The notes below the pieces were generated by a model that had not been told where the DNA came from, made no database searches, and saw nothing but the letters and a program-made list of their open reading frames with translations. From Frigoribacterium sp. CFBP 13712 (GTDB taxonomy: Bacteria > Actinomycetota > Actinomycetes > Actinomycetales > Microbacteriaceae), in NCBI RefSeq assembly GCF_014842255.1, contig NZ_JACYVH010000004.1:222399-286398 (forward strand): 64,000 bases of DNA, in the 5' to 3' direction. Positions 15,466-48,202 of the stretch are shown here, piece after piece. The position numbers and the translations under genes were made by a program. Within the stretch, counting starts at the first letter, position 1. Each line of letters opens with the position of its first letter.

Positions 15466-17055
15466 TCAGTGCCCGGCGGCGAACCGGGACTGCACGGTCG
15501 CGGCCGTCTGGGCCGAGTTGTTGTAGATCGTGGTGCCGTCGACCTGCCCTGCGAAGAACGCGCTGGTCGGGGCTCCCGTGTAGTTGCCGAGCGGGCCGTA
15601 GCCGACACGCCAGAAACCCGTCGCGCTCTGCGCCGTGCGCGACGTCGAGTCGCTGGCGACGGCGGTGCCGTCGACGTACACGACCGCACCCGTGCTGCTC
15701 GAGAGGGTGGCGACGACGTGGTGCCAGGCGCCGTCGTTGTACGCGGCGGGGGTCGTCAGCGTCTTGACCGTCGAGGTCGTGGGGCGGACGCCGAAGGCGA
15801 TCCTGCCCGCGTTCGTCACGAACAGCGCGCGGTCGGCGCTGGTGGCCGTGCCGGTCTGGTTGGGCGTGAACGAGGCGAGCGCACCGCCACGGGTCGAGGT
15901 CGTCTTGAACCAGGTCTCGACGGTGAACGACGCCTGACCGGTGAGGTTCACGGCCGTGGTGACCTGGCCGGCCGATCCGTCGAGCAGCAGCGAGGGGCTG
16001 TCGTTCCTCGCGCACGAGCCGGTCACGAACGAGGCACCCGAGGTCAGCGTGCCGACACGGGCGAAGGTGCTGCCGTCGGTGGTGGTCGTGCCCGAGAGCT
16101 CGTTGTACGGGAACCCGTACGAGGTCTCGCTGCTGTACGACTCCTTGAGGCAGTCGTAGCTGCTGCCCGCGGTGTAGCTCGAGGTCGGGTTCGCGACGGG
16201 CGCCGAGTACGCGGCACCGGCGCCGCCGCCGACCACGAGGGTGAGGGCGAGACCCGAGGCCGCACCCACGACGGCGAGCGCACCGGCGGCACCGCGCAGT
16301 CGGCGGAGACGACGCTCGCGGCGGCGGACGGCCCGACGGGTCGCCGCAGAAGAGGACGCGGCAGGCACGGAGGCGCCGACCGGGTGCACGGCCACCGAGG
16401 AGGCGCTGGTGGCGGACCCGGAAGCCGGGAACCACCTGCGGGTGGCCGTGATCGACGGGACCCGCGCCTCCTTGGCGTCACGGTGCAGGTCGCGGTCGAG
16501 ACGCGAGGCTCCGACGAGCAGGAGCAGCAGGCTGCCGACGACGATCAGGTGACCGTACTGCCCGCCGGCCGCCCAGACGAACGGCATGCCGAGGTACGGC
16601 ACGCGGAGGAACCCCACGCCGACGACGGCGCTCCGAGCGATCGGGGTCGAGTCGGCCGCCGGGTTGGCGTCGCCCTTCGTGACGATCTCGGCACCCGTGC
16701 CGTTCTCGAGGTAGCGGTGCAGACGCAGGTGGTCGGCCTTGTCGGGGTCGTCGAACAGCAGCACCTGGCCGCGGTGGATGTCGGTCTCGGCGACCGGCTT
16801 GGCCACGACGATGTCGCCGGGGCTGATGCGGGGCTCCATGCTGCCGGTCATCACGGTGGTGGGGGTCCAGCCGATGATGGCGGGGCCGGCGGCCCAGAGC
16901 AGCAGGCCGATCAGCGTGCCGAGCACGGTGCGCGCCAGCGTCGCGAGCAGGAGTCGGACCCAGTGCGGCCACGAGCCGGAGGCGCCCCGGGGGACCGTCA
17001 TCGACGCGGCCGCCGCGGCCCGGGAGGGGCGCAGCTTCAGGTCGATCGAGGTCAC
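15466..17055 (-). CDS. SipW-type signal peptidase I fused to a LamG domain behind an internal signal segment
   Basis: A 529-residue protein in two parts. Residues 1-185 are a signal peptidase I of the ER/SipW class: membrane segment about 34-62, catalytic Ser72 in TGSMEP, His113 in LRLHRY replacing the usual bacterial lysine, Asp129 in KGDANP, second membrane segment 168-183. After a low-complexity linker and an Arg-rich block (239-254) comes a third hydrophobic segment (257-277) ending in AYSAPVANPTSSYTAG, very like the N-terminus of the neighbouring secreted protein (SYSAFSSTTVNPTSNWTAG). The remainder (about 310-529) is a LamG/concanavalin-like domain. Start is GTG with GAGAGG upstream. 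The enzyme may cleave its own C-terminal half; that is inference. Confidence 0.85.
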   Translation of the reverse strand: MTSIDLKLRPSRAAAAASMTVPRGASGSWPHWVRLLLATLARTVLGTLIGLLLWAAGPAIIGWTPTTVMTGSMEPRISPGDIVVAKPVAETDIHRGQVLLFDDPDKADHLRLHRYLENGTGAEIVTKGDANPAADSTPIARSAVVGVGFLRVPYLGMPFVWAAGGQYGHLIVVGSLLLLLVGASRLDRDLHRDAKEARVPSITATRRWFPASGSATSASSVAVHPVGASVPAASSSAATRRAVRRRERRLRRLRGAAGALAVVGAASGLALTLVVGGGAGAAYSAPVANPTSSYTAGSSYDCLKESYSSETSYGFPYNELSGTTTTDGSTFARVGTLTSGASFVTGSCARNDSPSLLLDGSAGQVTTAVNLTGQASFTVETWFKTTSTRGGALASFTPNQTGTATSADRALFVTNAGRIAFGVRPTTSTVKTLTTPAAYNDGAWHHVVATLSSSTGAVVYVDGTAVASDSTSRTAQSATGFWRVGYGPLGNYTGAPTSAFFAGQVDGTTIYNNSAQTAATVQSRFAAGH

Positions 17056-17466
17056 GGGGCGCCTCTCTCGGCGGGACTGTCGGGTGGGGGTGGTGGTGCG
17101 GTGGTGCGGTGGTGCGGGTGGAGCGGATGGTGCAGGAGGTGCGGTGCGGGTGGAACGGTGCGGGTAGCGGTGGTGCCGGAGCGGGTCGTGCCTGGTGCGG
17201 GTGGTGCGTGTGGTGCTGCGGCGCGGCGGTTCGGGCCGCCGCGCTCGGGGTGGTGCTGCGGCGCGGCGGTTCGGGCCGCCGCGCTCGGGGTGGTCTCGGC
17301 GGTTCGGGCCGCCGTGACCGGAGTGGCCTCGGCGGTTCGGGCCGCCGTGGCCGGGGTCGATCCGACCGGTTCGGGGTGTCGGATCGTGTGCCCCGCCGTC
17401 GACCTACCCGGGGGGGGGGAGGTCGGTCGGCGGCGGGAGCCTGACGAGCTCGGGAGAGCTCGGAGA
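17056..17466. other. Repeat-filled gap in the SipW locus
   Basis: This 410-base gap separates the secreted-protein gene from the signal-peptidase gene, both on the - strand. It contains GGTGCGG-type short repeats (17090-17215), the hairpin array at 17211-17354 and a run of nine G at 17410-17418. No credible coding frame was seen. Whether one transcript reads through is unclear; the hairpins could lower expression of the downstream peptidase. Confidence 0.6.
17211..17354. repeat. Tandem hairpin array (40-bp exact duplication plus two shorter units)
   Basis: Bases 17211-17250 are repeated exactly at 17251-17290. Each unit holds GCGCGGCGG, TTCGGG loop, CCGCCGCGC. Two further shorter stems (GGCGG, TTCGGG, CCGCC) lie at 17298-17313 and 17331-17346. 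All four share the same six-base loop. Confidence 0.85.
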
Positions 17467-18066
17467 TCAGCTGTTCTGGGCTTCCCAGGTCAGGCCGAGG
17501 GCCGCGGTGCCGCCCTGGGTGCTGTTGGGGGCCGACGGGCTGACCGTGTAGGTCACCTGGTAGACGCGGGTCTCGGCGGCGGTGCCGGTGGGGGCCCAGT
17601 TGCCGACTCCGTTGGAGAAGTTGGTCGACGAGGTGCCGAACGCGGCGAGCGTGCCCGAGTAGAGCGACGAACCGGCGGCCGAGGGGGTGAAGCCGGCGCA
17701 GGTGCCGAAGCCGCCGCCCGTGCCCTGGACGACGCTCAGCGTGATGTTCGAGGCGAGGTTGTTGGTGGTGCTGGCGTTCGTGCCGTAGAGCTTGACGGTC
17801 GAGGCGAGCGATCCGGACGACGTGACGGCGATGCAGTTGCTGCCCGTCGAGCCCGGCTTCAGGTTCGAGGCGGTGAACAGCGCGGTGTTGCTGTCGTCGT
17901 CGGTGAGGGCGACGCTGCCCGCGGTCCAGTTGCTGGTGGGGTTGACGGTGGTCGACGAGAAGGCCGAGTACGAGGCCTGCGAGACGACGACGCCGCTGGC
18001 GACGAGGGCGGCGGGGATGGCGATCCAGGCGGCGAGGCGGGTCATGCGGGGGGTGGGACGGGACAT
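17467..18066 (-). CDS. Secreted protein with SipW-dependent-type signal peptide
   Basis: A 199-residue exported protein. The N-terminus is MSRPTPRMTRLAAWIAIPAA followed by LVASGVVVSQASYSAFSSTT, with the YSAFSSTTVNPTSNWTAG motif typical of TasA/CalY-like proteins processed by SipW-type peptidases. The mature part is Thr/Ser/Asn-rich with an expected beta-sandwich (VALTDDDSNTALF, LKPGSTGSNCIAV) and two cysteines. I use ATG 18066 because GGAG lies 8 bases upstream; a TTG 12 bases earlier is possible. It is immediately upstream of the signal peptidase gene on the same strand, so it is the natural substrate. Members of this group can form surface fibres or matrix; the role here is unknown. Confidence 0.82.
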   Translation of the reverse strand: MSRPTPRMTRLAAWIAIPAALVASGVVVSQASYSAFSSTTVNPTSNWTAGSVALTDDDSNTALFTASNLKPGSTGSNCIAVTSSGSLASTVKLYGTNASTTNNLASNITLSVVQGTGGGFGTCAGFTPSAAGSSLYSGTLAAFGTSSTNFSNGVGNWAPTGTAAETRVYQVTYTVSPSAPNSTQGGTAALGLTWEAQNS

Positions 18067-21553: not shown

Positions 21554-21860
21554 GGGTTTCTTTCCGGGCTTGCGGATGACGCGAAGAAATACCCGGGCAG
21601 CCGTTGACCAGGACCGTTCACCATCGTGAATTCATCCCGTCGAGATCCGACGGGAATCCGGCCCACAAGACTTACAAACCCTCATGCGCACCCCCGTCGT
21701 GACGAGCGGGTGGTGCAGTCGCGCCACAGGCGCGGTGTCTTGAGCCGACCGGTCTACGATACCCGACCCGCGCCTCCGGCAAAAGCCCCCTCTACGCGCC
21801 GCCGCGCGCCCCGTTTCGAGAAGACGGGCCCCGTGGGTCAAGACACCGTGCGCCCGCAGC
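21554..21860. other. Long 5' leader region of the helicase gene
   Basis: On the - strand the helicase ATG is preceded by roughly 200 bases without another gene. It contains a hairpin at 21635-21655 (TCCCGTC pairing with GACGGGA) and the 17-codon frame at 21632-21685. A GGAGGCGCGG core (21768-21777, reversed) lies at the far end. Long structured leaders are known for cold-regulated DEAD-box helicase mRNAs; regulation here is inference. Confidence 0.45.
21632..21685 (-). CDS. Possible 17-residue leader peptide upstream of the helicase
   Basis: ATG at 21685 with GGGGG about 6 bases upstream opens MRVCKSCGPDSRRISTG and stops at 21632, beside the leader hairpin. It contains CKSC. It could be an upstream regulatory frame or chance; conservation in relatives would decide. 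Low confidence. Confidence 0.25.
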   Translation of the reverse strand: MRVCKSCGPDSRRISTG

Positions 21861-21890
21861 GCGTCTCCCCCGCACCAGGGCGGTGGCGGT

Positions 21891-22480
21891 GCTTCGCGGC
21901 CCACTCCGGGCGACTCCGTCGCCACCGGACGCCCCCGCACGCCCACCCCCGCCGAACACGCCCGCAAACACCGAACCGCCCACCCTGACCCCACACACAA
22001 CGCGCCCCCACCCGCCGAGCGCATCTCCTCCACACCACAGCAACGGCGCTTCGCGGCCCACTCCGGGCGACTCCGTCGCCACCGGACGCCCCCACACGCC
22101 CACCCCCGCCGAACACGCCCGCAAACGCCGAACCGCCCACCCCGACCCCACACACAACGCGCCCCACCCGCCGAGCGCATCTCCCCCGCACCAGGGCTGT
22201 GGCGGCGCTTCGCGGCCCACTCCGGGCGACTCCGTCGCCACCGGGCGCCCCCACACGCCCACCCCCGCCGAACACGCCCGCAAACGCCGAACCGCCCACC
22301 CCGACCCCACACACAACGCGCCCCACCCGCCGAGCGCATCTCCCCCGCACCACAGCAACGGCGCTTCGCGGCCCACTCCGGGCGACTCCGTCGCCACCGG
22401 GCGCCCCCGCACGCCCACCCCCGCCGAACACGCCCGCAAACACCGAACCGCCCACCCCAGCGCAGGCGCCTGCGCCTGCG
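21891..22480. repeat. Minisatellite of four ~157-bp tandem units
   Basis: The landmark GCTTCGCGGCCCACTCCGGG begins at 21891, 22048, 22207 and 22363, so unit lengths are 157, 159 and 156. Units are nearly identical, differing by single bases and small indels (CACCAGGGC versus CACCACAGCAACGGC junction types, GGACGCC versus GGGCGCC). The array fills the gap between the RND exporter stop (22504) and the helicase leader. Frames are open on both strands only because of extreme GC and strong base bias; no start, ribosome site or protein-like composition supports coding. Confidence 0.9.
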
Positions 22481-22503
22481 CCCCAGGGCCTGCGTAACTG
22501 CAC

Positions 22504-25500
22504 CTACCCCGCGCGCCGCTCCGCCCGGCGCTCGCGCGCACCCTCGACCAGGAAGTACAGCACCGGCAGCACGACCAGCGTCAGCACGGTCGACGACACG
22601 AGCCCGCCGATGACGACGATGGCGAGCGGCTGCGAGATGAAGCCGCCGTGCCCCGTGATGCCGAGCGCCATGGGCAGCAGCGCGAAGATCGTCGCGGTCG
22701 CCGTCATGAGGATGGGTCGCAGTCGGCGCGACGCGCCTTCGAGCAGCGCCTCGCGCACCCGCAGCCCTCGGGTGCGGTACTGGTTCACGAGGTCGATCAG
22801 CACGATCGCGTTGGTGACCACGATGCCCACCAGCATCAGCACGCCGATCAGCGATGCGACGCCCAGCGGGATCCCCGAGGCGATCTGCAGCAGGATCGCA
22901 CCGGTCGCCGCGAACGGGATCGACACCAGCAGGAGGAACGGCTGCAGCAGGCTGCGGAAGGTCGCCACCATCACGATGTAGACGATGAGGATGGCGATCA
23001 GCACGGCCAGACCCAGCTGAGAGAACGCGTTCGCCTGGTCGGCCGTGACGCCGCCGATCTCGGTGTCGGCGCCGGTCGGCAGGTCGATGCCGTCGAGGGC
23101 GTCGGTCACCTCGGTGCTGGCCGTCGAGAGGTCGTCGCCCGACGGGGTGACGGTGACGGTCGCCGTGCGGACTGCGTCGGAGGTGGTGACCGAGGTCGGC
23201 CCGGTCGTCTCGTCGATCGTGGCGATCGAGTCGAGTCGCACGGGGCCGGTCGGGCCGGGCAGCTCGACGGCGCGGAGCTCGTCGAGACTCGCCGGCGGCG
23301 TCGGGGCGACGGTGTAGACGTCGATCGAGCTGTTGTCGATCTCGATCGAGCCGACCTGCAGCGGCTGCACGGCCTGCGACACGATCGCGCCGACGGCGAC
23401 CTCGCTCAGTCCGAGCGCCGCCGCCTCGTCGCGGTCGATCTGCACGCCGATGATGGGCTGCGCCGAGGCGAGGTTCGAGCTGGCCTCGGCGGTGCCGGGC
23501 AGTTCGCGCACGGTCGACAGCACGCTGTCGGTCGCCGTCTGGAGCGTGTCGGGGTCGGGTGCGGAGACGTCGATGGTGATGTCGTTGCTCGTGCCGAACC
23601 CGCTCGAGGCGGTCACCTCGATGTCCCCGACGTCGCCGAGCCCGTCGAGACGGTCGCGTACGTCCGTCTGGACGACGTCCTGGTCGGCGCTCTCGTCGGT
23701 CGTGATCGAGTAGGTGACGGTGCTGTCGCCCGAGCCGCCGAAGAAGCTGGCGATCGACGTGCCGCTCGAGCCGATGGTCAACTGCACGGTCTCGATGCCG
23801 TCGACGCCCTCGAGGGCCTCCTCGACCTGCGTCGCCGCGTCGGACTGCGCGTCGAGACTCGTCGCCGGGGCGAGGGTCTGGGTGACGCTGAAGGTGTTCT
23901 GCCCGCTGGCGCCCAGGAAGTTCGTCTTCATGAACGGCACCGCGGCGGCCGTGCCGCCGAGCACCAGCACGGCGACCAGGATCGTGACGACGGGTCGGCG
24001 CAGCGTGCCGCGCAGCACCGGCACGTAGATGCGGCGCAGTCGGTCGAGCGGGGCCCCGGCGGTGGGGTCGGAGGCGCGGGTCGTCAGCTCTTCGGCGGGC
24101 GCACCTCCCGAGACGGCGCCGTCGGAGCCGTCCGCACCGGCACCCGCAGCCGCGGCACCCCGGGCGCTCCCCGCGTGCTTGTGCGCCTTCGGCGCCCGGA
24201 GGAACCAGTACGCCAGCACCGGCACGATCGTCAGCGCGACGAACAGCGACGCGATGAGGGCGATCGTGACCGTCAGGGCGAACGGCCTGAACAGCTCGCC
24301 GGTGATGTTGCCCACGAAGGCGAGCGGCAGGAACACGACGACGGTGGTCACGGTCGACGCGGTGATGGCGCCGGCGACCTCGCGCACGCCGGTCGTGATG
24401 GCCTGGAGGCGGTCGGCACCCGAGGTCAGGTGCCGCTTGATGTTCTCGATGACGACGATGGAGTCGTCGACCACGCGCCCGATGGCGATGGTCAGGGCGC
24501 CGAGCGTGAGGATGTTCAGCGTGTAGCCCGACGCCTGCAACCCGATGAACGTGATGAGCACGCTGGTCGGGATGCTGATCGCCGTGACGATCGTCGAGCG
24601 GATCGACAGCAGGAACACCAGGATGACGATCACCGCGAAGGCGAGACCGAGCAGCCCCTCTTCGGCGAGCGCGTCGATCGACTGCTGGATGAAGGGCGCC
24701 TGGTCGAAGACGACGGTGAGGTCGACGTCGTCGCCGAGGTCGGTGGCGAGTGCGGGGATGGCGTCGCGGACCGTCTCGGAGACGTCGACCGTGTTGGCGT
24801 CGAGCGTCTTCGTCACCGCGACCGTCAGGGCGGGCTCGCCGTTCACCCGGCTGATCGAGGTGACCGGGGCCGAGGTGAGCGCCACGTCGGCGACGTCGTC
24901 GATCGTGACGGCGGAGCTGCCGCCGAGCAGGGGCAGCGCGGCGATCTGGTCGGCGCCCGTCAGTCGCGACCCGGCCTGGATCGACAGCGTCTGGCCGTCC
25001 TGGGTGATGGTGCCGCCGGGGATCAGCTGCCCGTTGGCGTCGAGCGCGTCCTGGAACGCCTGCGTCGTGAGGCCTGCTGCGGCGAGCGCGTCGCGGTCGG
25101 GCGTGATGGTGACGCGCTGACCCGCGTCGCCGAAGACGGAGGCCTCGCGGACGCCGTCGAGCTTCTGCAGGTCGGGGACGGTCGTGTCCGACAGGCGGTC
25201 GACGAGCTGCTGCGCCTCGGAGTCGTCGTACCCGGTGACGGCGATCTGGATGATCGGCAGGTCGTCGAGGCTGCCGGTGACGACCTGGGTGTCGACGGCG
25301 TCGGGCAGGCTCAGACGGTTGACGGCCGACTGGATCTTCTGCTCGGCGTTGTCGAGGTCGGTGCCGTAGGTGAACTCGGCCGAGACGGTGCTGGTCGAGG
25401 TGCTCGAGGTCGCGGTCGTGCCCTCGAGACCCGGGATGATCTGCACCGCCTGCTCGATGGGGGTCGAGACGTCGTCGTTCACGACCTCGGGGGTGGCCCC

Positions 25501-31863: not shown

Positions 31864-33354
31864 TTGACGACTGCTTCCTCTGAATCGACTTTGCGACATG
31901 GGCTCGTAGGTGACGCCCCGGCGCCCTGGGCTCGAAACTACGCTCGGCGCCTGACACTGACCGACACTATCGTCGTCCTCTTCGCCGTCGCGGCGGGCGA
32001 GTTGACCTGGTACGCGATGAACGTCGGTTCGCTGGCGGATCGGCTGGCCTGGGGTGACCTCGCCACGAGGCACACCGTGGTGAGCGTCCTCCTGCTCGCC
32101 GCTTGGCTGCTCGTCCTCACCGCCTACGGCACCCGTGACTCCCGCATCATCGGGCAGGGCACCCTCGAGTACAAGCGGGTCCTCGAGTCGTCGCTGATGC
32201 TCTTCGGCGTGTTCGCGATCTTCGCCGTCGTCTTCCGGCTCGATCTGGGGCGCAGTTTCGTGCTGACGTCGTTCCCGGTCGCCGCGGTCGGCCTCGTGCT
32301 CACGCGGTGGGGATGGCGGCAGTGGCTCGTCGCGCAGCGTCGCGTCGGACAGTACTCGGCCAAGGCCCTCCTCGTCGGCTCACGCCACTCCGTCGAGCAT
32401 CTGGCCGACAATCTCTCGGGCCAGCCGTCCGCCGGCTACCGTCCGGTTCTAGCCTGCGTGCCGCACGGCACGTCAGGCAGCACGATCGGCACGGCGGGCG
32501 TCCCCATTGCGGGCGGCCTCAACGATGTGACGGCCGTCCTCGCCCGGCAGCCCGTCGACTGCGTCATCGTCACGAGCAGCGACGAGCTCTCGCCTCTCGC
32601 GGTGAGGCAACTCGGATGGTCGCTGGAGGAGTCGGGTACGCAGCTGATCGTGGCCCCCGCACTGACCGATATCGCGGGGCCGCGGATGCACACCCGCCCC
32701 GTGGCCGGCCTGCCGTTGATCCACGTGGAGTCACCGGTGTTCGCCGGTCGCAAGGCGTGGACGAAGACGGCCATGGACCGGGTGGCGGCCGGGCTGGCCG
32801 TCGTCCTGTTGTCACCTGTCCTGCTGGCGATCACGATCGCAGTGGCGTCGACCTCGAGCGGGCCGATCATCTTCCGTCAGCAACGGGTGGGCCTCGGCGG
32901 CGAGACCTTCACGATGTTCAAGTTCCGATCCATGCGGGTGGACGCCGAGGCGCAGTTGGCGAAGCTCCAGGCGGAGCAGCGCGATGCCGGCAACCAGGTC
33001 CTCTTCAAGATGAAGAACGATCCGCGGGTCACGCGTGTCGGGGCGTTCCTCCGTCGCTACAGCCTCGACGAGCTGCCGCAGCTGTTCAACGTGCTAAACG
33101 GCACGATGTCGCTGGTGGGCCCGCGCCCGCCCCTCGACGCCGAGACGAAGGCCTACGAGAAGCACAACTTCCGCCGATTCCTCGTCCGCCCCGGCATCAC
33201 CGGGCTGTGGCAGGTCAGTGGCCGGAGCGACCTCTCCTGGGAGGACTCGGTCCGTCTGGACCTCTACTACGTCGAGAACTGGTCCGTCCTCAACGATCTG
33301 ATCCTACTCGGACGCACGGCACGCGCCGTCTTCCTTGGAAGCGGTGCCTACTAA
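31864..33354 (+). CDS. Polyprenyl-phosphate sugar-1-phosphate transferase (exopolysaccharide initiating enzyme)
   Basis: A 496-residue WbaP/CpsE-type membrane enzyme that starts repeat-unit synthesis by placing a sugar-1-phosphate (often glucose or galactose) on undecaprenyl phosphate. Four membrane segments occupy residues about 30-160, then a Rossmann-like domain ([13 protein letters not shown]). The catalytic end has a re-entrant helix ([20 protein letters not shown]), [44 protein letters not shown] and [14 protein letters not shown]. The start is TTG at 31864 behind a GAGGGGGA ribosome site. It is still GC-rich like the native genome. First gene of the + half of the locus; the next gene's ATG follows its stop with no gap. 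Confidence 0.92.
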
Positions 33355-34500
33355 ATGCCTCGGCTAAAATCAACCAATCCCTCCGTCGCAATCATTGGAA
33401 CCAGGGGGTACCCCAGTTACTACGGGGGCTTCGAGACTGCGGTTCGGAAGCTCGCGCCGTACCTGGTCGACGAGGGGTGGGACGTAACCGTCTACGGACG
33501 CTCCGGTTCTACACGCAATGATGATCCTGATCGAGATCTTCGCGTAAGGACCAAGGTGACCCGCGGTCTGGAAACCAAGTCACTCAGCACGCTTTCCTAT
33601 GGCTTGAGCGCAATTATCGACACCGTCATACAGAAACCAGACGTCGTTCTCATCATGAACGTCGCGAACGGTTTCTGGCTGCCACTCCTTAAACTCCGCG
33701 GGATCCCGACCCTCGTCAATGTCGATGGCATCGAATGGGAACGCGCCAAATGGGGACGACTGGCCAAGGCAGTCTTCCGTTGGGGCGCCAAGACGACGGC
33801 CTGGTGGGCCACACAGTTGGTCTTCGACGCCCATGAGATCGGAAGAAGGTGGAAAACCGCTTTTGGACGAGACGGTGTGTTCATTCCCTACGGCGGAGAC
33901 AAAGCGGCCGCGCTTGCCCTCGAGCCAGCTCTCTCGCACCGTGGGTACGCGCTCGTCGTTGCCCGCTTTGTACCGGAGAACACCATCCTGGAATTCATTT
34001 CTGCCGCTTCGCAGGTTGCCGAATTGCATGACGTCGTCATCGTCGGCTCGAGCGGCTACGGAGGAGAAATCGACGACCGCGTTGCTGCACTCGCAGAGTC
34101 AAATTCACGCGTTCATTGGCTGGGACATGTCAGCGACGACCAGCGTCTTTTCGCGTTGTGGCAGCATGCCGGCGTCTACTTCCACGGTCACAGCGTAGGT
34201 GGAACCAATCCTGCCCTCGTCCAGGCAATGAGGCTCGGAGCCCCCGTGGTCGCGCGAGACACGCCATACAACCGCGAAGTGCTCGGGACCGAGGGCCGCT
34301 TCGTCCCCGCCGAACCGATTTCGATCGCCGAAACCCTCCTGGCTGTCATGGACTCGGTGCAAGAACAGGAACGCCTCAGTCGGGCCTCCTCACGACGCGC
34401 GGACACCGATTACACGTGGGAGAAAGTTCTCGAAAGCTACCGAAACAGTCTCTCCACACTCGTCCACTCAGGCGTTCAAAGGCATTCGACGTATGACTGA
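33355..34500 (+). CDS. Glycosyltransferase with DUF1972 N-terminus
   Basis: A 381-residue GT-B fold enzyme. The N-terminus VAIIGTRGYPSYYGGFETAV is the DUF1972 signature, found in rhamnosyltransferase-like enzymes of surface polysaccharide loci. Later motifs are VARFVPENTILEFI and VHWLGHVSDDQRLFALWQHA, then YFHGHSVGGTNPALVQAMRL with the donor-binding acidic/Gly pattern of family GT4. It begins at the base after the previous stop. Base composition falls sharply from this gene onward (more A/T at third positions), the first sign of foreign ancestry. Sugar donor and acceptor are unknown. Confidence 0.88.
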   Translation: MPRLKSTNPSVAIIGTRGYPSYYGGFETAVRKLAPYLVDEGWDVTVYGRSGSTRNDDPDRDLRVRTKVTRGLETKSLSTLSYGLSAIIDTVIQKPDVVLIMNVANGFWLPLLKLRGIPTLVNVDGIEWERAKWGRLAKAVFRWGAKTTAWWATQLVFDAHEIGRRWKTAFGRDGVFIPYGGDKAAALALEPALSHRGYALVVARFVPENTILEFISAASQVAELHDVVIVGSSGYGGEIDDRVAALAESNSRVHWLGHVSDDQRLFALWQHAGVYFHGHSVGGTNPALVQAMRLGAPVVARDTPYNREVLGTEGRFVPAEPISIAETLLAVMDSVQEQERLSRASSRRADTDYTWEKVLESYRNSLSTLVHSGVQRHSTYD

Positions 34501-35587
34501 TCGGCATGCCGACCCCGGCGCGCTCATGGTCATCCCTGAAGCCCGATCGGCACATCTCGAACGCCTCCGAGAGCGCCCAGCGGACAAGATGTTGTATCTT
34601 GCCAGCAAACCTGACTTCGACGCTGATCTCGCTACCGGTCAGGCGAACAAGGTGACCCTGCTGTCGGCCTGTTGGAGAGTCGCACTGACGAGGAGCCTCG
34701 TGCTCGAAATGCCTGAACCTCTGTGGCTCAGATTCTTCCCCAAGTTCGCCCTGTTGGGGTTGATTTACAAGGCCACGAACCCTCTACGTCGCGGCCGGGG
34801 CAGGGTCGTCGTTTACGCCATCGAAAACAACGGACTGGACCAGTTGCTGAGCCCTGACGCGAGCCGAGGTAAGCGAGTCGTCGGTCCGGCTCTCCGCATG
34901 GCAATAAGGACCATTTCCAACCTCGTCCTAGACCGGATCTGCTTCGGCAGCCCCGGAAGCGAGGCCACCTACGCGCAACTCCGATTGACGCCTCGGCTCG
35001 ACAAGACAACAATCCTAGAGCTTCCGGCCGCAGCGGACGAGACCACGACCGGGGCTGACCAGGCGGTACTCTTCGTCGGTGCATTGGAAGAGAGAAAAGG
35101 TGTTCGCCAGTTAATGGAGGCCTGGGAAGGCGTAGAACGTCTCTGCTCGGACGCCCACCTGACTATCGTCGGAGACGGCCCCCTCCGCGCCGCTGTCGAG
35201 GCGTGGCAGGGCGTCCGCCCGCAGACTCGACGATATGAGGGACAGCTCGACCGGCGTGAACTGGACATCGTCTACAGACGCCATTCTGTCCTGGCCGCCC
35301 CGTCGATCCGGGAAGGGCGTTGGCGCGAGCAGATTGGGCTTCCCATCAAGGAGGGGCTCGCGCGAGGCTTGCACGTAGTAACGACGTCGGAGACAGGCCT
35401 CGCGCCGTGGCTCTCGCAACACGGACACGGCGTACTCCAAGGATCTCAGGAACCGGATATGCAACTGCGCCTCATGAGCTCTATCTTGAACGCGCTATCA
35501 ATTACACGAGATCCTCGGCTGATCACGTCTGACCTGCCCCGGCTCGATGGTCGGACAGCCGCTCGAGAATGGCTGCACTACGTATGA
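34493..35587 (+). CDS. Family 4-type glycosyltransferase
   Basis: A 364-residue GT-B enzyme. The C-terminal half is recognisable: VLFVGALEERKGVRQLMEAW (the GT4 R-K-G helix), LTIVGDGPLRAAVEAW, GQLDRRELDIVYRRHSVLAA and GLPIKEGLARGLHVVTTSET. The N-terminal acceptor domain has two hydrophobic helices (RFFPKFALLGLIYKA) that may touch the membrane. The ATG lies 8 bases inside the previous gene. The stop overlaps the next start (ATGA at 35584). The sugar specificity cannot be read. Confidence 0.82.
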   Translation: MTDRHADPGALMVIPEARSAHLERLRERPADKMLYLASKPDFDADLATGQANKVTLLSACWRVALTRSLVLEMPEPLWLRFFPKFALLGLIYKATNPLRRGRGRVVVYAIENNGLDQLLSPDASRGKRVVGPALRMAIRTISNLVLDRICFGSPGSEATYAQLRLTPRLDKTTILELPAAADETTTGADQAVLFVGALEERKGVRQLMEAWEGVERLCSDAHLTIVGDGPLRAAVEAWQGVRPQTRRYEGQLDRRELDIVYRRHSVLAAPSIREGRWREQIGLPIKEGLARGLHVVTTSETGLAPWLSQHGHGVLQGSQEPDMQLRLMSSILNALSITRDPRLITSDLPRLDGRTAAREWLHYV

Positions 35588-36627
35588 CTGATCCCTTTTC
35601 CAAACCCCGCGTGGCCATCATTAACCCACTTGCGGGTGCACTGTCGCATTACGCTGGCGCCCTGCATGAGACGCTCCAGCGCGAGTCAGAAGTCCGAGTT
35701 TACAAGTTTGCCGAGCCATCCGTCAGTGGGCACTCGCGCGTGCGGTGGATTATCGACTACGGAACCACCGCCCTTCGGGCTCGACGGTGGGCAATGTCTG
35801 GCCGTTCACAGGACGGGCGCGTGATTGTCACGTGGCCTGTACTTGGGCACGTGGACCGCATCGCTCTAGCCTGGCTCGCGAGTTCACGGTTGCGAACAGC
35901 TCTGGTCATCCACGACCCAACCCCACTAGTCAGAGCTCTGGGATACAGCAAATTCACGACACGCGCCGCATCGCTCCTTGGCTCACGGGCTGAAGTCATC
36001 GTTCATTCGGCGGCAGCCGAACGCGACTTCCGCGAAAGCACAGGAGATAGCCCGACCCAGTTGCCTCATCCCCTTAGCTCCATAAAACCGGTAAGGCGGG
36101 GCCACAAACCGGAAGGACCAATCGTGCGGGTAATCGGGCAGTGGAAGAAGGATCGCGACCTCGACCTAATGGCTAAATTGGCGTCGACAAATCCACGGGT
36201 TCAATTCGAGGTCCTTGGCCGCGGTTGGCCCGACGTTCCAGGCTGGCAAACGACCTCTCGGTTCCTCTCAGAAGAAGAGCTTGAGGAGGCTGTCACGTCT
36301 AGTTCTGCGGTACTCATCCCATACAAGCGGTTCTACCAGAGCGGCATCGCTATTCGATGCCTTGAGGCCGGCGTCCCCTTTGTGGGGTACAGAGACAGCA
36401 GTCTCGAAGATCTCTATGGCGACGAGTCTCCTTACCTGGTCGCCCCTCCGGCTCCTGGCGCCGAGGTGCCCTTGGGCCAATGGCGTGCAGCCCTGGAGAA
36501 GGCCTTGTCCTCCGTGCCGCTCGAATTATCGGCCTTACGCACGAAGGCGATCGACACAGCGAAAACCAAATGGTCGTGCTGGGTGCCGGCTGCTGCAAGC
36601 CAGACGGACTTTGAGGCTAGATCTTGA
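35584..36627 (+). CDS. Glycosyltransferase-like protein
   Basis: A 347-residue GT-B-type protein by general pattern: VAIINPLAGALSHYAGALHE at the N-terminus, a mid segment ALVIHDPTPLVRALGYSKF, the linker region GPIVRVIGQWKKDRDLDLMA and a C-terminal YKRFYQSGIAIRCLEAGVPF that matches the EAxAxGxP-like donor loop. The family is less clear than for its neighbours. I use ATG 35584, which overlaps the previous stop as ATGA, over the ATG 15 bases earlier. Its own TGA overlaps the TTG start of the next gene. Confidence 0.75.
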   Translation: MTDPFSKPRVAIINPLAGALSHYAGALHETLQRESEVRVYKFAEPSVSGHSRVRWIIDYGTTALRARRWAMSGRSQDGRVIVTWPVLGHVDRIALAWLASSRLRTALVIHDPTPLVRALGYSKFTTRAASLLGSRAEVIVHSAAAERDFRESTGDSPTQLPHPLSSIKPVRRGHKPEGPIVRVIGQWKKDRDLDLMAKLASTNPRVQFEVLGRGWPDVPGWQTTSRFLSEEELEEAVTSSSAVLIPYKRFYQSGIAIRCLEAGVPFVGYRDSSLEDLYGDESPYLVAPPAPGAEVPLGQWRAALEKALSSVPLELSALRTKAIDTAKTKWSCWVPAAASQTDFEARS

Positions 36628-37535
36628 CGACAGGACGACAAGACCGAGAAGACGCAGCGCACTGCGTCGTGGTTATCGTTAATTACAACTCGTCCGAGTT
36701 GATCGGTGAACTCCTCACCGACATTTCCCCCACTTGGTGTGCCCGCGTGGTCATTGTCGACAACAGCGATGACGCTAATGAGTTTGAACGTGTACAAAGG
36801 CTCTGCGCATTAGTGAAAGTAGATGCGCTGCAAGCTCCTGGAAACATCGGATTTGGGGCGGGTGTGAACTTAGGCGTTGAGCACGCCCTAGCTGATCGGA
36901 ACATCGAGTACGTGTGGGTACTAAACCCGGACACTCGTGTTCGAGCCAATGCTCCAACCGTCCTCATCAACCACCTTAGGGCGCACCACTGCGACGTTGT
37001 CTCTCCCGCTGTCACAACGGGCGCTCGCGATGAAGTTATCTGGTTCGCCGGCGGCAGCATTGACCCCCGTCACGGGACGGTGAGGCATTGGCGCTACGAC
37101 GAACCTTCCACAAGCCTGCCTAGCGATCCTTTTGCTACGATCTTCATGTGCGGGGCCGCTCCGCTCTTCAGACGTGAAGCGTGGCAACAACTACACGGCT
37201 TCGATGAGTCACTTTTTCTCTACTGGGAAGATGCAGAATTATCTCTACGCGCGGCTGACCTCGGCCTTCGAATGGAAATTCTCCCTACCGCTCGCGTCTG
37301 GCACGCCGTCGGCGGAACGAGCGCCGAGACAGGCCAGAGCCGCGCGTTCTATTACTATTCTGCGCGCAATAGAGTTCGGGTCATGAGAAAGCGATCGGGT
37401 ATATGGGCCATCGCGAGTCCGGTGGGCATACTCGCGACCGCCAAATTTACCCTTCGACCCCTCCGACGGGAATCGGCGAGTCCTGTGGCTAAATCATGGG
37501 CGGCCTTACGCGGCCACATCTCAGGACTTCTCTGA
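36624..37535 (+). CDS. Family 2 glycosyltransferase (rhamnosyltransferase-like)
   Basis: A 303-residue GT-A enzyme. Residues 15-120 give the nucleotide-binding fold: VVVIVNYNSSELIGELLTDI, VVIVDNSDD, NIGFGAGVNLGVEHA and the metal-binding VWVLNPDTRV (DxD-like). MCGAAPLFRREAWQQLHGFD and LFLYWEDAELSLRAADLGLR (ED-x-E/D catalytic region) follow. This layout is common in rhamnosyl- and galactofuranosyltransferases. TTG start overlapping the previous stop (TTGA). A small stem at 37528-37544 (TTCTCT, AGAGAA) straddles the stop codon and may end the + transcript. Confidence 0.88.
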   Translation: MTTGRQDREDAAHCVVVIVNYNSSELIGELLTDISPTWCARVVIVDNSDDANEFERVQRLCALVKVDALQAPGNIGFGAGVNLGVEHALADRNIEYVWVLNPDTRVRANAPTVLINHLRAHHCDVVSPAVTTGARDEVIWFAGGSIDPRHGTVRHWRYDEPSTSLPSDPFATIFMCGAAPLFRREAWQQLHGFDESLFLYWEDAELSLRAADLGLRMEILPTARVWHAVGGTSAETGQSRAFYYYSARNRVRVMRKRSGIWAIASPVGILATAKFTLRPLRRESASPVAKSWAALRGHISGLL

Positions 37536-37886
37536 GTCAGAGAAACGGCCCTTACGAGAGAAGGATACAACCCCTTTTAGGGTAATTCGTGTGAAGCCAG
37601 CCCCTGAGGGCAGCTTCCTCGCCCGAACGGGCGGGCATGCACCCTCTCGCAACGCCCTGCGCAATTTCCACTGCGCTGTGAATGACTAACCCCCTTCCCC
37701 CCCAAAATACAGGCAAAAGAGGGTGCTACCACTAACAGCCTGTTTCCCCAAGAGTCACACTCTGCCCGGAAACTTAGATACAACGTGATAAGCGGCACCC
37801 ACCGAAGCAGACCTGGGTGTCGGTGAGATCGAAACTGGGCAGTTGTGCCGGTCGAAAAGTGAGCACTTGAATCCACGATTGGATGG
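37536..37886. other. Intergenic stretch before the IS21 remnant; no gene seen
   Basis: About 350 bases of mixed composition after the last + glycosyltransferase. Apart from the stem at the preceding stop codon, it contains short pyrimidine runs (37690-37700) and, from about 37816, sequence resembling the lead-in of IS21-type elements. No supported reading frame. Confidence 0.4.
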
Positions 37887-39058
37887 GTGGTCACTTTCGA
37901 GAATTTGGCGTTGATTCATCGGCTTCGCCATAGCGAGAAGGTCACGAAGGCTGTGATCGCCAGACAGCTCGGGATCCCGCGAAACACGGTCGTGAAGGCG
38001 TTGGCAGCGAACTTGCCGCAGCGGTATCACCGGCCGTTAGCGGGGACGGCGTTCGACGCCGTCGAGCAGCAAGTCCGGGCGCTGTTGGCCAAGCCGCCGT
38101 TGATGCCGGCGACGCTCCTTGCGGAGCGGCTCGGCTGGGTCGGGTCCCCGTCGTGGTTCCTTGGCCAGATCCGGATGGACGGCCCGCATTATGCGCCCAA
38201 GGATGCCGCGTCGCGGTTGCGGCATGTTCCGGGTGATCCGTGTGATCAGGTGCAGTGCGATCTCTGGTTCCGCCGCCCGGATTCGCGTGGGTGACGGGCA
38301 AGTGGCGTCCCCGCCGGCGCTGGTGATGGTCGCGCCGCATTCGCTGTTCATCACCGGGGTGATGCTGCCGTCGAGAACGACACCGGATCTGCTGGCCGGC
38401 ATGCGGTTCCTCCCTAGCAGCAGCTGGGGGCGGATCCGCGTAGGCTGGGTTAGGACAGCGAAGTCGGCATCGGTCGGCGTTTTCGTTTGGCTTCCGGGGC
38501 GACGGAGTTCGTCGGTGGCCTGGCGAGGCGGTTGGTGCAGTTCAGGCCGTTCGATCCGGAGTTTAAGGGCATCGTCCAACGGGCTAACCAGTTCTTTAAG
38601 ACATCGTTCATGCCAGGGCGGGCGTTCACCTCGCCGTCGGACTTTAACGCATAACTCGCCTCGCTGCCCCCGCGCGAACGCCAGGACGGTCCGGAGCGTG
38701 AAGGCGAGACAGGTCGACCTGATTGGGCGAGACCGAGCCGGAATGCTGCAGCGGCCGCCGGTCGTGCCGACGGCGGGCTTTGCCGACCAGGTTCGATTGC
38801 CGCGTGAGTACTACGTCCGCGTTCTCTCGAATGGCTAGTCCGTCGCCCCGGCTGCATGGCGAACATCACAGCCAATCTGCCCCGGCCCGAGGTCACCCCG
38901 CGGGGCCGCTTGGTTGTCTCCCACAAACGAACCTCGTCGACCGGCGCCACGATCACTGATCCGGCCCACGTGAACCTAGCCGACGAGATGAGGGAGCTGT
39001 TCCAGAACTCGAGGGCCGTTCCGGCGCAGGACGACCCGGTCCGGGACGTGGGCGACTA
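37887..39058 (+). pseudogene. istA: istA transposase pseudogene (IS21 family)
   Basis: The intact 5' part (37887-38290) reads VTFENLALIHRLRHSEKVTK, the helix-turn-helix VIARQLGIPRNTVVKALA and later PGDPCDQVQCDLWF. After about 38280 the frame shifts: ASPPALVMVAPHSLFITGVM in a second frame, then VGIGRRFRLASGATEFVGGL and KGIVQRANQFFKTSFMPGR in a third with internal stops, then RANARTVRSVKARQVDLIGR in the second again, and finally SSTGATITDPAHVNLADEM. The catalytic Glu of the usual GIVER motif is Gln here and the WDNE motif is degraded. The product cannot be active. Confidence 0.82.
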
Positions 39059-39099
39059 GGACGCCGCGTTCGGAGACGACTTCAATACTGAGGCCGCCT

Positions 39100-39790
39100 C
39101 GTGACCGCCGCCACCGACACCTTGAAGCACGTCGACTTTCTCGCCCGAGCCTTTATAGCTCCGCGGATGCGTGACGCGTCTAGCGTCTTGGCCACCAGGC
39201 CAGGGCCGTCGGGTGGTCGCACAAGCAATACCTCATGCCGTTTGGGACCGGGAACTCCCAGCCGTCGCTGCCTCCGGCAGGCTGCTGCGAATTAAAGCGG
39301 CCGGGTTCCCGACGAGGAAGACAATCGAGAATTTCACCTTCGACCACCAACCGTCCCTCAAACGCCACGAGATCGCCCACCTCGCCCAGGGCACCTACCC
39401 CCTAACGCGCAGAATGTCGTCCCTGTCGACCCTCCGGGCACCAGGAAAACACATCTCACGACCGGGCTCGGAATCAAAGCTGCCCAGACCGGCCACCGGG
39501 TGTTGGTCGCCACCGTGGTCGAGCGGGTCGCCAAGCCGCAAGCGGTCACCAGCACTGCTGGCTCGCGACGGAGTTCATGAGGCTGCGCCGATACGGGCTG
39601 ATCATCGTCGACGAAGTGGGCTGAATGTCGCTCGAACAGGACGCCGCAAACCTGTTCTTTCAACTCGTCTCGAGTCGTTGCGAGCACACGTCGCTGATCC
39701 TCCAGCAACCTGCCCTTCGCTCGCTGGGGCGATGTCTTCGGCGACCAATTCGTCGCATGATCCCAGCCTTGCCTGGTAACCGCATTCTTC
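39100..39790 (+). pseudogene. istB: istB helper ATPase pseudogene (IS21 family)
   Basis: Remnants in order: LKHVDFLARAFIAPRMRDAS, then AGFPTRKTIENFTFDHQPSL in another frame, LKRHEIAHLAQGT, a damaged Walker A (PPGTRKTHLTTGLGIKAAQT with Arg for the second Gly), LRRYGLIIVDEVG, and EQDAANLFFQLVSSRCEHTS. At least three frameshifts and a stop after DEVG. It follows the istA remnant by about 40 bases as in complete IS21 elements. Confidence 0.8.
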
Positions 39791-39843
39791 TACCTCGGCC
39801 AATTCTCGAGCCAGTAGTGAAGATTACAACCGAGAAGAGTAGC

Positions 39844-41991
39844 TCAAGATCTAATCTCGGCCATTTCCGCGGACAGAAGCGGGGCCAATGTTGCAGTAAA
39901 AAGACCGACCATATGAATACCATCGACTCGCACAGGGTGATTTGATATCACTGGCGGGCATTGATTCTCAAAACATACCCAATCGCGGGTGTTAATGTAT
40001 CGGACATTTGGGCCCTCGAACTCAGATACAGCCCGCTCTTCTGCTTTAGCCACAGCACCCCAGTGCCTGGAGGGTGATTCCGTGCAGAAACTCGGGGTAC
40101 TTCCCGGCACAACACAGTCATTGAGTTTAGGCCCTCGCGGGGGCACTCCCAGAACTATAGCTTTCGTCTCCGTAGGAAGCTGCTTTAGAAGATCCTGAGC
40201 ACTACTTCCCCAAGCATCGTAACCCGAAAGCCCTGCAGGCTCGTCCATATACCCGACCGTGTCCAGATTCGAGACGATAATAAGATCGGGCCGCATTGCA
40301 TCGACTTCCGACAAGGCCCAATCACGATGAGAGTTACAAGCCGCCCTGTTTTCATTTGACAGCGAAACGACAAAGGCAGGACACCCGGACATCGTCAGCA
40401 TCTGGATGCGGTAGCCATCCGGTTCCAGCGAGGCCCGAATTGCCGGCATCCACGACGCCGCCATGCTGTCACCCAGAACTACGGCACTTTTGTCGGCGTC
40501 CATTTCACCGTAGCTGCATGCTGATAGGTTCTCTTGGCTAACAGTCAAGCACTTGTCTTGGTACACCTCTGGCGCCCAAGCAGAATAATCGAGAGCGTCA
40601 AGCGAGGGGGTTATACCATCGGGCAAATCCGACAGAGACAAACCAGCGAGAACAGCCGCAGATTGGATACCCGCGGGTGTGTTGTCAGCAATTTTGGGCC
40701 CTTCCGCTGCATCCGCATCAAACGTTCCGAGGAAGGCAGAAACAGGTGCGTCCCGCGGAGTCACTGCGATCGCTACGACAGCAAGCGTTCCCACGGCGAG
40801 TAGGGCGGTAAAGGGATACACGAACTTTGAGTAGTCGACACGCCTCGCATCTCGATTTCGGACAGCCTGAGACCCAGCAACTTTTCGCGGACGACTCTTG
40901 TGAATAGGCTTTTCGTAAAGGTGATAGGCCGTGATAGCAAGCAGGAACATCACGCATATTGCGAAAATGAAAAGGGTTAGACCATCCAGGTAAAGGTCCG
41001 CGAAGATGATAACCGGGAAATGCCACAGGTATAGCGAGAAAGAAATGTCACCAATGTAAGAACTTACTCGGTTGGTCAAAATCCCCACGTGCCGCGGTTC
41101 GACCCCAACGCCACCCGATATGACGAGTGCGGAACCGAGAACTGGAAGCAGCGCCCATGGTGCGGGGAAGGGTGAGCTTGTTTGGATAGCAAACAATGAC
41201 CCGAAAATCAAAATGAGACCAACCCACGACAAGACCGTGCGCACATGAGCCCGCATATCCGACAAGATCGGAGTCACGACCGCGAGGAGCGCTCCTACGC
41301 CAAGCTCCCAAGCGCGCGAAAAAGTGGAGAAGTATGCCCAAGTCGAGCTCGCTGCGGTTTCATAGAATGCCCAAACAAGCGAAAGCACAATTATGCAAGA
41401 AATCGCTATCCCAATGGCTCGACGAGCCTGCTGGCGTCCGCCACTTCGACGGCGATCTACTGTCACGAAAACGAGAGCCATGATGACGGGCCACACGAAG
41501 TAAAATTGTTCTCCTACTGCGAGCGACCAGAAGTGTTGCAATGGCGAGGACGGACCCTCGCCTTGTAGATAATCAGTACCAGCTGCTGCAAAATTCCAGT
41601 TTGCTGAAAATACGACGGCGAAAAGCGCATCTCGTATTGTGCTCGTCGCCCTCGCTGTTGTGAAGAAGAAAGTAGCTGCAGCTGCTGTCACAACCAGAAC
41701 AAGCAGGGACGCAGGCAAGATTCTACGAATTCGACGCTGGTAAAACTTCTTGAAAGAGATCCCTCCCGTGTTCTCATACTCCCGCAACAAGAGCCCCGTT
41801 ATTAGGAATCCGGAGAGAACGAAAAAGACATCGACACCTATGAATCCACCCGTGGGCCAACCAAACAAGTGATCAGCTACTACTGCGAGAACGGCCAGTG
41901 CTCGGAGCCCCTGGATGTCGCGTCGTGGGCCTTGTCGGGCAACGGCCGCCAACGGGTTTGTGGTTGAGCCGGAGGCGGCGTCTCTCTTCAT
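39844..41991 (-). CDS. Membrane O-acyltransferase with SGNH domain (polysaccharide modification)
   Basis: A 715-residue acyltransferase-3/SGNH protein, same architecture as the one at 12223 but with lower GC. RRDIQGLRALAVLAVVADHL, FIGVDVFFVLSGFLITGLLL and FYQRRIRRILPAS mark the membrane domain (about 11 segments to residue 400); the external SGNH-like part has AVVLGDSMAASWMPAIRASL near 500 and DGIHMVGLFT near 695. It probably O-acetylates the exopolysaccharide made by this locus. Last gene of the - half, 52 bases after the pyruvyltransferase. It ends next to the IS21 remnant. Confidence 0.88.
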   Translation of the reverse strand: MKRDAASGSTTNPLAAVARQGPRRDIQGLRALAVLAVVADHLFGWPTGGFIGVDVFFVLSGFLITGLLLREYENTGGISFKKFYQRRIRRILPASLLVLVVTAAAATFFFTTARATSTIRDALFAVVFSANWNFAAAGTDYLQGEGPSSPLQHFWSLAVGEQFYFVWPVIMALVFVTVDRRRSGGRQQARRAIGIAISCIIVLSLVWAFYETAASSTWAYFSTFSRAWELGVGALLAVVTPILSDMRAHVRTVLSWVGLILIFGSLFAIQTSSPFPAPWALLPVLGSALVISGGVGVEPRHVGILTNRVSSYIGDISFSLYLWHFPVIIFADLYLDGLTLFIFAICVMFLLAITAYHLYEKPIHKSRPRKVAGSQAVRNRDARRVDYSKFVYPFTALLAVGTLAVVAIAVTPRDAPVSAFLGTFDADAAEGPKIADNTPAGIQSAAVLAGLSLSDLPDGITPSLDALDYSAWAPEVYQDKCLTVSQENLSACSYGEMDADKSAVVLGDSMAASWMPAIRASLEPDGYRIQMLTMSGCPAFVVSLSNENRAACNSHRDWALSEVDAMRPDLIIVSNLDTVGYMDEPAGLSGYDAWGSSAQDLLKQLPTETKAIVLGVPPRGPKLNDCVVPGSTPSFCTESPSRHWGAVAKAEERAVSEFEGPNVRYINTRDWVCFENQCPPVISNHPVRVDGIHMVGLFTATLAPLLSAEMAEIRS

Positions 41992-42043
41992 ATGTAAGGC
42001 CCTAGGGTTTTGTGGCTGAACTACTACGGGAAAAAGCCGATAG

Positions 42044-43063
42044 TTATAGAGTTGTCATATCCTTGAGTTTTTGATGAGCGATAGCCGCGCCTTCCTCAGG
42101 ACTCCTAGCGAAGTAGACATCATCTAAACTGCCAAGGTAGTCCCGCACTATAGCCTCCACTTTGCCATTTGCATTTGCCAAAGCTACAACCGGAATGCCA
42201 AGGAGTCCGGCCATGACTGTTGCGTGCAGGCGGTCGGTAATTACCAAACGCCCCTGACTCAACAGACTAAGGGCGTATCTTACGTTGTTGAAAGCCAGCG
42301 CCTTGTAGCATCGCTGCTGAAGGGGCTGAAGAAGTGTGGCGAGTTGCGGGACCCGCTTGTTGAGTGCCCCCGGCGCACGAAGAAGCCGCGCCCAAACTCT
42401 TCTCCATCCCGTCAGGCGCCAATCTCTGTCGATTCGCGACCATGGCATCGCCAACTCGAAGACGCCTTTTCCGTGATCGGCCTCAGAGTCCTTTCGACGC
42501 AAAACGACGGCATCGACCCGTTCCGCATTCGGTCTCTTTTGCTCGCCCACCCCAAACGCCATGTCCGGACAGAACCTCACGTTGGTGGAAGGGAAGAGAG
42601 AACGCGTGCGGTTGACGCCGACAAGGTCCCGGATCAGGACGGTCAGATCGGGATGAGCCCCAAAGATCCTCTGCGCCCGTTCGAGCCTGGCTCCCTCGGT
42701 AAAGTCGATCGTTTGAGGAAGTTGAATTACGCGCCTGTCCGGGAAATCTTGAATGACACGCTCTCGGAAATCTTGAAACTCCGTCCATCTGTCCCCCAAA
42801 TTGCCACCACCGTGAATCAAAACTGGCCCGGCGGGAGCGAGCAGTCTTAGATCCTGGGCACGATAGCGACTCGCGTCTGCAACGTAGCGAATACTCACGC
42901 CCAGCTTTTTTAGATATGCGAGTTCGCCAAGATAGATAAGAGAGTCCCCAGCATTCTCATGGTTAGGAAAATCGACGAGCGAAACAGTATCGTTTGGCCC
43001 CAGAAACTCACTCAAAATCATTAAGGTTCGGTCTTGAATTAAAGCAATAGACATTGGACTCAC
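42044..43063 (-). CDS. Polysaccharide pyruvyl transferase family protein
   Basis: A 339-residue enzyme that would place a pyruvate ketal from PEP on a sugar of the repeat unit, giving the polymer negative charge. Typical parts are LVDFPNHENAGDSLIYLGEL, the Gly-rich VLIHGGGNLGDRW, VIQLPQTIDF, and the C-terminal ITDRLHATVMAGLLGIPVVA then NANGKVEAIVRDY. The GTG at 43063 overlaps the preceding TGA (GTGA); an ATG three codons in (43054) is the alternative. Acceptor sugar unknown. Confidence 0.88.
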   Translation of the reverse strand: MSPMSIALIQDRTLMILSEFLGPNDTVSLVDFPNHENAGDSLIYLGELAYLKKLGVSIRYVADASRYRAQDLRLLAPAGPVLIHGGGNLGDRWTEFQDFRERVIQDFPDRRVIQLPQTIDFTEGARLERAQRIFGAHPDLTVLIRDLVGVNRTRSLFPSTNVRFCPDMAFGVGEQKRPNAERVDAVVLRRKDSEADHGKGVFELAMPWSRIDRDWRLTGWRRVWARLLRAPGALNKRVPQLATLLQPLQQRCYKALAFNNVRYALSLLSQGRLVITDRLHATVMAGLLGIPVVALANANGKVEAIVRDYLGSLDDVYFARSPEEGAAIAHQKLKDMTTL

Positions 43064-47215: not shown

Positions 47216-47219
47216 AGAC

Positions 47220-48200: not shown

Positions 48201-48202
48201 GA

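Follow-up and report, generated by a model that had tools for sequence, protein, structure and literature searches.

A SipW-type signal peptidase fused to a LamG domain behind an internal signal, encoded next to a TasA-like protein in Actinobacteria

The locus described here raises the question of why a signal peptidase would carry, as the C-terminal half of its own chain, a domain that looks like a secreted substrate. It lies on the minus strand of a 64,000-nucleotide stretch of Frigoribacterium sp. CFBP 13712 (assembly GCF_014842255.1, contig NZ_JACYVH010000004.1, positions 222,399 to 286,398), which we refer to as the window and whose numbering is used throughout. The initial annotation gave the span 15466-18066 for a peptidase joined to a cargo-like domain behind a SipW-type signal; that span covers two genes, the fused gene itself and an upstream neighbour, here called T, which encodes a secreted protein and starts at the ATG at 18066. 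On balance, we favour reading the pair as a two-gene version of the tapA-sipW-tasA operon of Bacillus subtilis, with a TasA-like T, a SipW-type peptidase fused to a second substrate, and a LamG domain that upon release would cap or start the fibre.

The fused gene (15466..17055, minus strand) is an uninterrupted open reading frame of 529 codons with a GTG start, and its assignment as signal peptidase, internal signal and LamG domain on one chain of 529 residues derives from the list of open reading frames, profile matches and relatives with the same fusion. TIGR02228, the NCBIfam model of endoplasmic reticulum (ER)-type/SipW-like signal peptidases, matches residues 59-180 with 61.5 bits (cut-off 51.85), and the catalytic region (residues 59-163; 16567..16881) contains Ser72, His113 and Asp129, as proposed at the outset. 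The nearest solved peptidase structures are those of SEC11A and SEC11C. Although the protein stays outside the Bacillus SipW equivalog NF046067 (52 bits, cut-off 190), it may work in a SipW-like manner. Three helices are evident from hydropathy, two that flank the catalytic region and a third directly before AGAAYSA. The second membrane helix (about residues 167-188; 16492..16557; helix 167-198 in the AlphaFold2 model) leads into a linker and Arg-rich block (residues 189-254; 16294..16491), which is predicted from its sequence and net charge to be cytoplasmic and to form the n-region of the internal signal. The third hydrophobic helix (about residues 257-278; 16222..16287), modelled at low confidence as helix 236-278, would be the corresponding h-region. 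Column conservation among 65 relatives places the predicted cleavage site at A279-G-A281^A282-Y283 (16207..16221), such that the chain continues as AGA^AYSAPVANPTSSYTAG; these residues (282-297; 16165..16212) form a donor-strand-like peptide that shares a motif with the predicted mature N-terminus of T, the donor-strand role being suggested by work on Bacillus (PMC9674648, PMC10151520). The LamG / ConA-like jelly-roll domain follows (residues 359-520; 15496..15981), with a PF13385 (Laminin_G_3) match of 70.7 bits against a cut-off of 27.6, and hydropathy together with this match bears out the earlier description of an Arg-rich block, a third hydrophobic segment and then LamG.

The AlphaFold2 model of the fused protein (predicted local distance difference test (pLDDT) 69.8, predicted template modelling score (pTM) 0.46) keeps a helix up to residue 278 and falls below 50 for residues 274-311, which fits with, rather than proves, an accessible internal site. 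Its use as evidence of self-docking was set aside, the model being too weak at the site. Foldseek searches with this model retrieved, among the best 50 of 1288 matches, the common ConA-like jelly roll found in pentraxin, sialidases and the binding domains of clostridial neurotoxins, a likeness that has no bearing on toxicity.

The relatives of the fused protein speak for a signal at the third helix. Among 65 distinct relatives, obtained from 115 peptidase matches by keeping those with E below 1e-30 and removing duplicates, Ser72, His113 and Asp129 are each identical in 65/65, and in an alignment of 18 fusions these three residues and Ala281 are invariant and the junction itself is conserved. 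The -3 position (column 279) is Ala in 61 and Ser in 4 of the 65 (94% Ala) and the -1 position (column 281) is Ala in 62 (95%), compared with a mean of 23% Ala in the preceding helix; these two columns have the lowest entropy of the 92 few-gap columns within residues 165-301. The linker and Arg-rich segment has a positive net charge in 54 relatives, and an aromatic residue follows the site at P2' in 24 and at P3' in 40, the one sequence without it (L096) being apparently frameshifted. A 20-residue matrix built from the signal region of the T family was run over 66 sequences, in which the window protein is counted twice. Its top match in the window's fused protein fell exactly at GAGAAYSAPVANPTSSYTAG with a score of 17.6, whereas 15.1 was the most that any of 1320 shuffles of these 66 reached, and the mirroring of the neighbour's motif noticed in the initial annotation is therefore above chance. 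The best match coincided with the internal site in 46/66 sequences and exceeded the 95% null score in 41/66, a score exceeded by none of 114 peptidases that have neither a T neighbour nor a third helix. As judged from these sequences, the third helix looks like a signal and more than a mere anchor.

The fusion is recurrent. When one genome per species was scanned, the best 80 of 274 matches gave 79 loci, and within these matches in-frame peptidase-LamG fusions are present in Frigoribacterium, Curtobacterium, Arthrobacter, Pseudarthrobacter, Schumannella, Metallococcus and a metagenome-assembled genome of the Intrasporangiaceae. The search was widened with single proteins to the order (198 genomes) and the class (98 genomes), and other families of the class hold four further fusions beside T, three with LamG and one that is immunoglobulin (Ig)-like by resemblance; the label Ig-like for L310 refers to its resemblance to L336 only. 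The pooled loci comprise 31 distinct LamG fusions beside T, and the search for further peptidase-LamG fusions with an internal signal that the initial annotation had suggested has thus returned a family and not a single case. A family-wide census of 150 genomes, which considered the peptidases among the matches listed and left out L170 and L288-L290, contains at least 151 distinct TIGR02228-type peptidases. In this census a third helix followed by at least 80 residues is seen in 13/15 T-adjacent peptidases versus 13/136 of the others (Fisher p 5e-10). Of the two T-adjacent exceptions, L279 has an ice-binding cargo overlooked by the hydropathy rule, and L238 is the one that stands. Ten of the 13 census fusions without T belong to a separate second family with a tail of its own. 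Members of that second family (L233, L236, L237, L240, L241, L252, L261, L263, L276 and L281) lack a T neighbour and combine a third helix with an additional domain and a helix at the C-terminus, near which L261 bears LPRTG. Pooling of loci gives 86 distinct T-adjacent peptidases, a set enriched for relatives of the query. A C-terminal extension of this kind is present in 77, of which 8 escaped the motif rule and were included on the length of their tail, and it is absent from nine, one of them apparently broken. In the peptidase tree, a branch with 98% support in the Shimodaira-Hasegawa-like approximate likelihood ratio test sets apart 83 of 85 T-type rows, among which the kinds of cargo are mixed.

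The tail itself is exchangeable. Beside T, the peptidase is extended by LamG, a short beta domain, Ig repeats (PF17957), an ice-binding domain (PF11999), a glycoside hydrolase (GH26, on a plasmid) or a mere 17-20 residues. The ice-binding domain is fused to a signal peptidase beside a TasA-like gene at three loci (L249, L278 and L279). The term short beta (FN3-like) domain was coined in this analysis, and Pfam gave no domain for such tails in L085, L086 and L173. The T profile recognises the tail of L291 as TasA-like (E 4e-23), and by its sequence this protein, whose gene is not directly preceded by T, is a peptidase joined to a member of the substrate family. The shortest tails, those of L301 and L303, end 17 and 20 residues after the site, and no cargo was seen downstream of them in any of the three frames; such peptide-only tails are expected if the strand is the essential part. 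L114, with a 17-residue tail, was dropped from this class because its cargo lies in another frame, and L096 also appears to be broken. The plasmid-borne fusions L336, L337 and L338 of Arthrobacter and Pseudarthrobacter have RefSeq names (Ig-like domain-containing protein, glycosyl hydrolase) that give the cargo only and hide the peptidase.

The neighbouring T gene (17467..18066, minus strand) encodes a protein of 199 residues with a SipW-type signal and a predicted cleavage site at ASYS^AFSSTTVNPTSNWTAG, and is located upstream of the fused gene on the same strand. A structure model of T (pLDDT 76.3, pTM 0.69) matches the TasA fibre 8aur in Foldseek at E 5.2e-5, the sole match below 0.001, and VIA aligns it with TasA entries 5of2 (Z 8.7) and 5of1 (Z 8.4) over 128 residues at a root-mean-square deviation of 3.0, with a further TasA entry at Z 7.6. 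Donor-strand pilus folds of the type 1 and Pyrobaculum bundling kind also turn up in the fold lists of T. Searched against the PDB, the T profile has TasA as its top matches, but at E 0.4, and PF12389 (camelysin) matches 24 of 27 aligned T members at E <= 1, with a best value of 4.4e-6. T therefore resembles TasA by its modelled fold, and weakly by profile. Both T genes of this genome are located directly before a peptidase with cargo. The second operon (L173; C8, 85300-90800) combines a T paralogue that is 63% identical with a peptidase fused to a short beta domain, and the genome has five TIGR02228 matches in all, of which four were located and two carry cargo.

The same kind of cargo is also found outside the fusion. 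In L320 and L327, the gene order is T-like (T profile E 3.5e-6 and 2.6e-5), unfused peptidase, and LamG with its own hydrophobic signal; the LamG of L327 matches fused LamGs at up to 1.7e-33 and that of the window at 1.7e-18. Peptidases with an adjoining separate LamG gene form another clade (11 rows, 99%), and the LamG genes of this clade have their own N-terminal signal in 8/8 read. Thus, the same LamG cargo exists both as an ordinary substrate with a signal and as the C-terminus of a peptidase. L339, on a plasmid of Arthrobacter agilis, was not used as an unfused counterpart; the T profile misses its TasA gene and its small protein matches 0/74 fused tails. In the L339 row, a protein that RefSeq names as TasA family and that passes PF12389 stands with a signal peptidase that is not fused and with the small protein, which bears a signal.

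How the two genes might work together is suggested by the Bacillus system, in which each TasA subunit donates its N-terminal strand to the next, and in which TapA, a complete Ig domain, accepts no strand and donates the first one (PMC9674648, PMC10151520). Residues 44-57 of TapA alone support proper biofilm formation (PMC10151520). Because the stretch after the predicted cut in T and in the fused protein corresponds to the position of the TasA strand, we propose that the LamG half is cut off and starts the fibre. The fused protein would sit in the membrane with three helices and would be cleaved after Ala281 by the same enzyme, either in cis or from a neighbouring molecule, thereby freeing a 25-kDa LamG domain with the new N-terminus AYSAPVANPTSSYTAG as putative donor strand. 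Since LamG is a complete fold of its own with no TasA groove, it could donate a strand to the first T subunit and accept none, and it would therefore cap or start the T fibre in the manner of Bacillus TapA, placing a surface-binding domain at that end. Fusion of cap and peptidase would keep fibre starts in proportion to processing enzymes, and the cap would be made where T is released. This proposal builds on what sequence and comparison establish: the fusion exists and is conserved, the catalytic residues are in place, the internal signal has AxA followed by an aromatic residue, T has a TasA-like fold, and elsewhere the same cargo is encoded separately with a signal of its own. The initial annotation had seen the C-terminal half as a substrate of SipW type, which is upheld by the Arg-rich n-region, the hydrophobic segment, AxA, the aromatic residue, the separate signal-bearing LamG genes and the exchange of cargo; its further idea of a free-standing, self-releasing adhesin gives way to a TapA-like cap fused to SipW, which fits better because the neighbour T resembles the fibre subunit TasA.

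A number of observations weigh against such a cap. Eight of the pooled T-adjacent peptidases have no cargo, and L191 and L238 are T-adjacent and yet lie outside the main T-type clade. The best match of the T-family matrix falls elsewhere than the internal site in 20/66 sequences, and in 40 of 65 relatives the aromatic residue sits one position later, at P3', often preceded by proline or a small residue. Window T scores 15.7 bits on PF12389, below the cut-off of 22.5, and had no NCBIfam match, including to TIGR04088 (SipW-dependent signal); for its model, an unrelated protein follows at Z 7.5, about one Z unit under the best TasA entry. Pfam gives no match for the TasA-like tail of L291, the AlphaFold2 model of the fused protein is moderate and uninformative on docking of the cleavage site, and the donor-strand role of residues 282-297 is taken over by analogy from Bacillus. 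To our knowledge, no LamG protein has been described as a TasA cap.

The same data bear on three other explanations. The third helix could be a permanent anchor, leaving LamG tethered to the peptidase at the cell surface and the T fibres held through the exposed strand with no release. Such an N-in/C-out topology needs no cleavage, and a tethered strand donor could hold a fibre, TapA itself having been discussed as an anchor (PMC9674648). We nevertheless consider it unlikely, given that Ala at -3 and -1 is far more frequent than in the preceding helix and is not needed for an anchor, that in the separate LamG genes read a site of this kind belongs to a normal N-terminal signal, and that the chain after residue 278 is predicted, at low confidence, to be disordered, leaving the site unburied in the model. 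Ordinary signal peptidase I tolerates AxA, which suits another idea: a different enzyme, either of SipW type or a housekeeping one, would cut the internal site in trans, the fused peptidase would act on T alone, and the fusion would serve the co-production of two proteins. The five TIGR02228 matches of this genome, two of them with cargo of their own, would provide candidates. In TasA, a Trp at P2 is the main block to LepB; because this residue is absent from the internal site, housekeeping cleavage there retains some plausibility, which is a further point against the favoured reading (PMC10269814). On the other hand, aromatic residues at P2' impede LepB-type enzymes, and TasA, with Phe at P2', is processed by the ER-type SipW (PMC10269814). 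Moreover, the fusions recur with an active site intact in 65/65, even where the second helix and the site are just 32 residues apart, and cutting in trans appears rather improbable to us. That a gene-call or sequencing artefact removed the stop codon between a peptidase gene and a LamG gene could be imagined from the separate LamG genes that adjoin peptidases elsewhere, but it is refuted for practical purposes by the conservation of the fusion, with 31 distinct in-frame LamG fusions across genera and a conserved junction.

The proposed SipW-cap fusion has parallels among known systems. The tapA-sipW-tasA operon is alike in its subunit of TasA fold, in its dedicated ER-type (Ser-His) peptidase and in having another substrate whose N-terminal strand is similar (PMC9674648, PMC10151520, PMC10269814). 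In contrast, peptidase and second substrate are here one polypeptide with an internal signal, T comes first, and the cargo is LamG instead of the Ig V-set domain that lies behind the donor strand of TapA, so that the likeness is proposed for the role only. Because they overlap, tapA and sipW have been suggested to be associated, and a fusion is not mentioned in the available parts of that paper (PMC10151520). The sipW-tasA/calY genes of Bacillus cereus with CapP and the sipW-bsaA genes of Clostridium perfringens likewise combine SipW with filament-forming and accessory secreted proteins, with peptidase and substrates, unlike here, encoded by separate genes (PMC13082335, PMC7395162). Strand donation between subunits is shared with type 1 donor-strand pili and the bundling pili of Pyrobaculum (PMC9674648, PMC10151520). 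Chaperone-usher pili use other machinery.

Self-cleavage of signal peptidases has precedent in E. coli LepB and Bacillus SipS, where it is mainly an in vitro and inactivating reaction, whereas the product here would be a folded extracellular domain. We know of no peptidase-substrate fusion in chaperone-usher pili. The titles and abstracts listed by full-text searches, one of them aimed at TasA donor strands, describe no fusion of a signal peptidase with LamG or with a substrate, in a coverage that largely excludes subscription journals and preprints. As far as seen, the fusion, its recurrence and its exchangeable cargo are undescribed, while the component parts are of known kinds.

Between T and the fused gene lies a structured intergenic stretch of 411 nucleotides (17056..17466, minus strand; folding z -5.5 against 100 shuffles), which is rich in hairpins and contains four copies of GGCGGCCCGAACCGCC. 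This gap might lower read-through from the subunit gene into the peptidase gene. Elsewhere in the window, repeated blocks at 21632-22541 are visible as repeated peptides in several frames, and over some 18 kb (32001-50000) the G+C content drops from about 0.72 into the range 0.54-0.65, a pattern like that of acquired islands.

Extending the proposal to the family, we tentatively suggest, as a possibility that we would place somewhat short of even, that a self-processing enzyme carries the fibre starter. Each SipW-cap fusion would then release, or hand over in cis, one donor strand together with an end domain that can be exchanged (LamG, Ig, ice-binding, glycoside hydrolase, TasA-like or the strand alone), thereby physically coupling initiation to subunit processing and offering Actinobacteria a general, modular choice of fibre end. 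The strand-like motif persists while the remaining cargo is exchanged or reduced to 17-20 residues, which singles out the possibly essential part and makes the question testable. Such fusions also account for some actinobacterial genes publicly named for their cargo, such as Ig-like domain-containing protein or glycosyl hydrolase, in which a signal peptidase is hidden.

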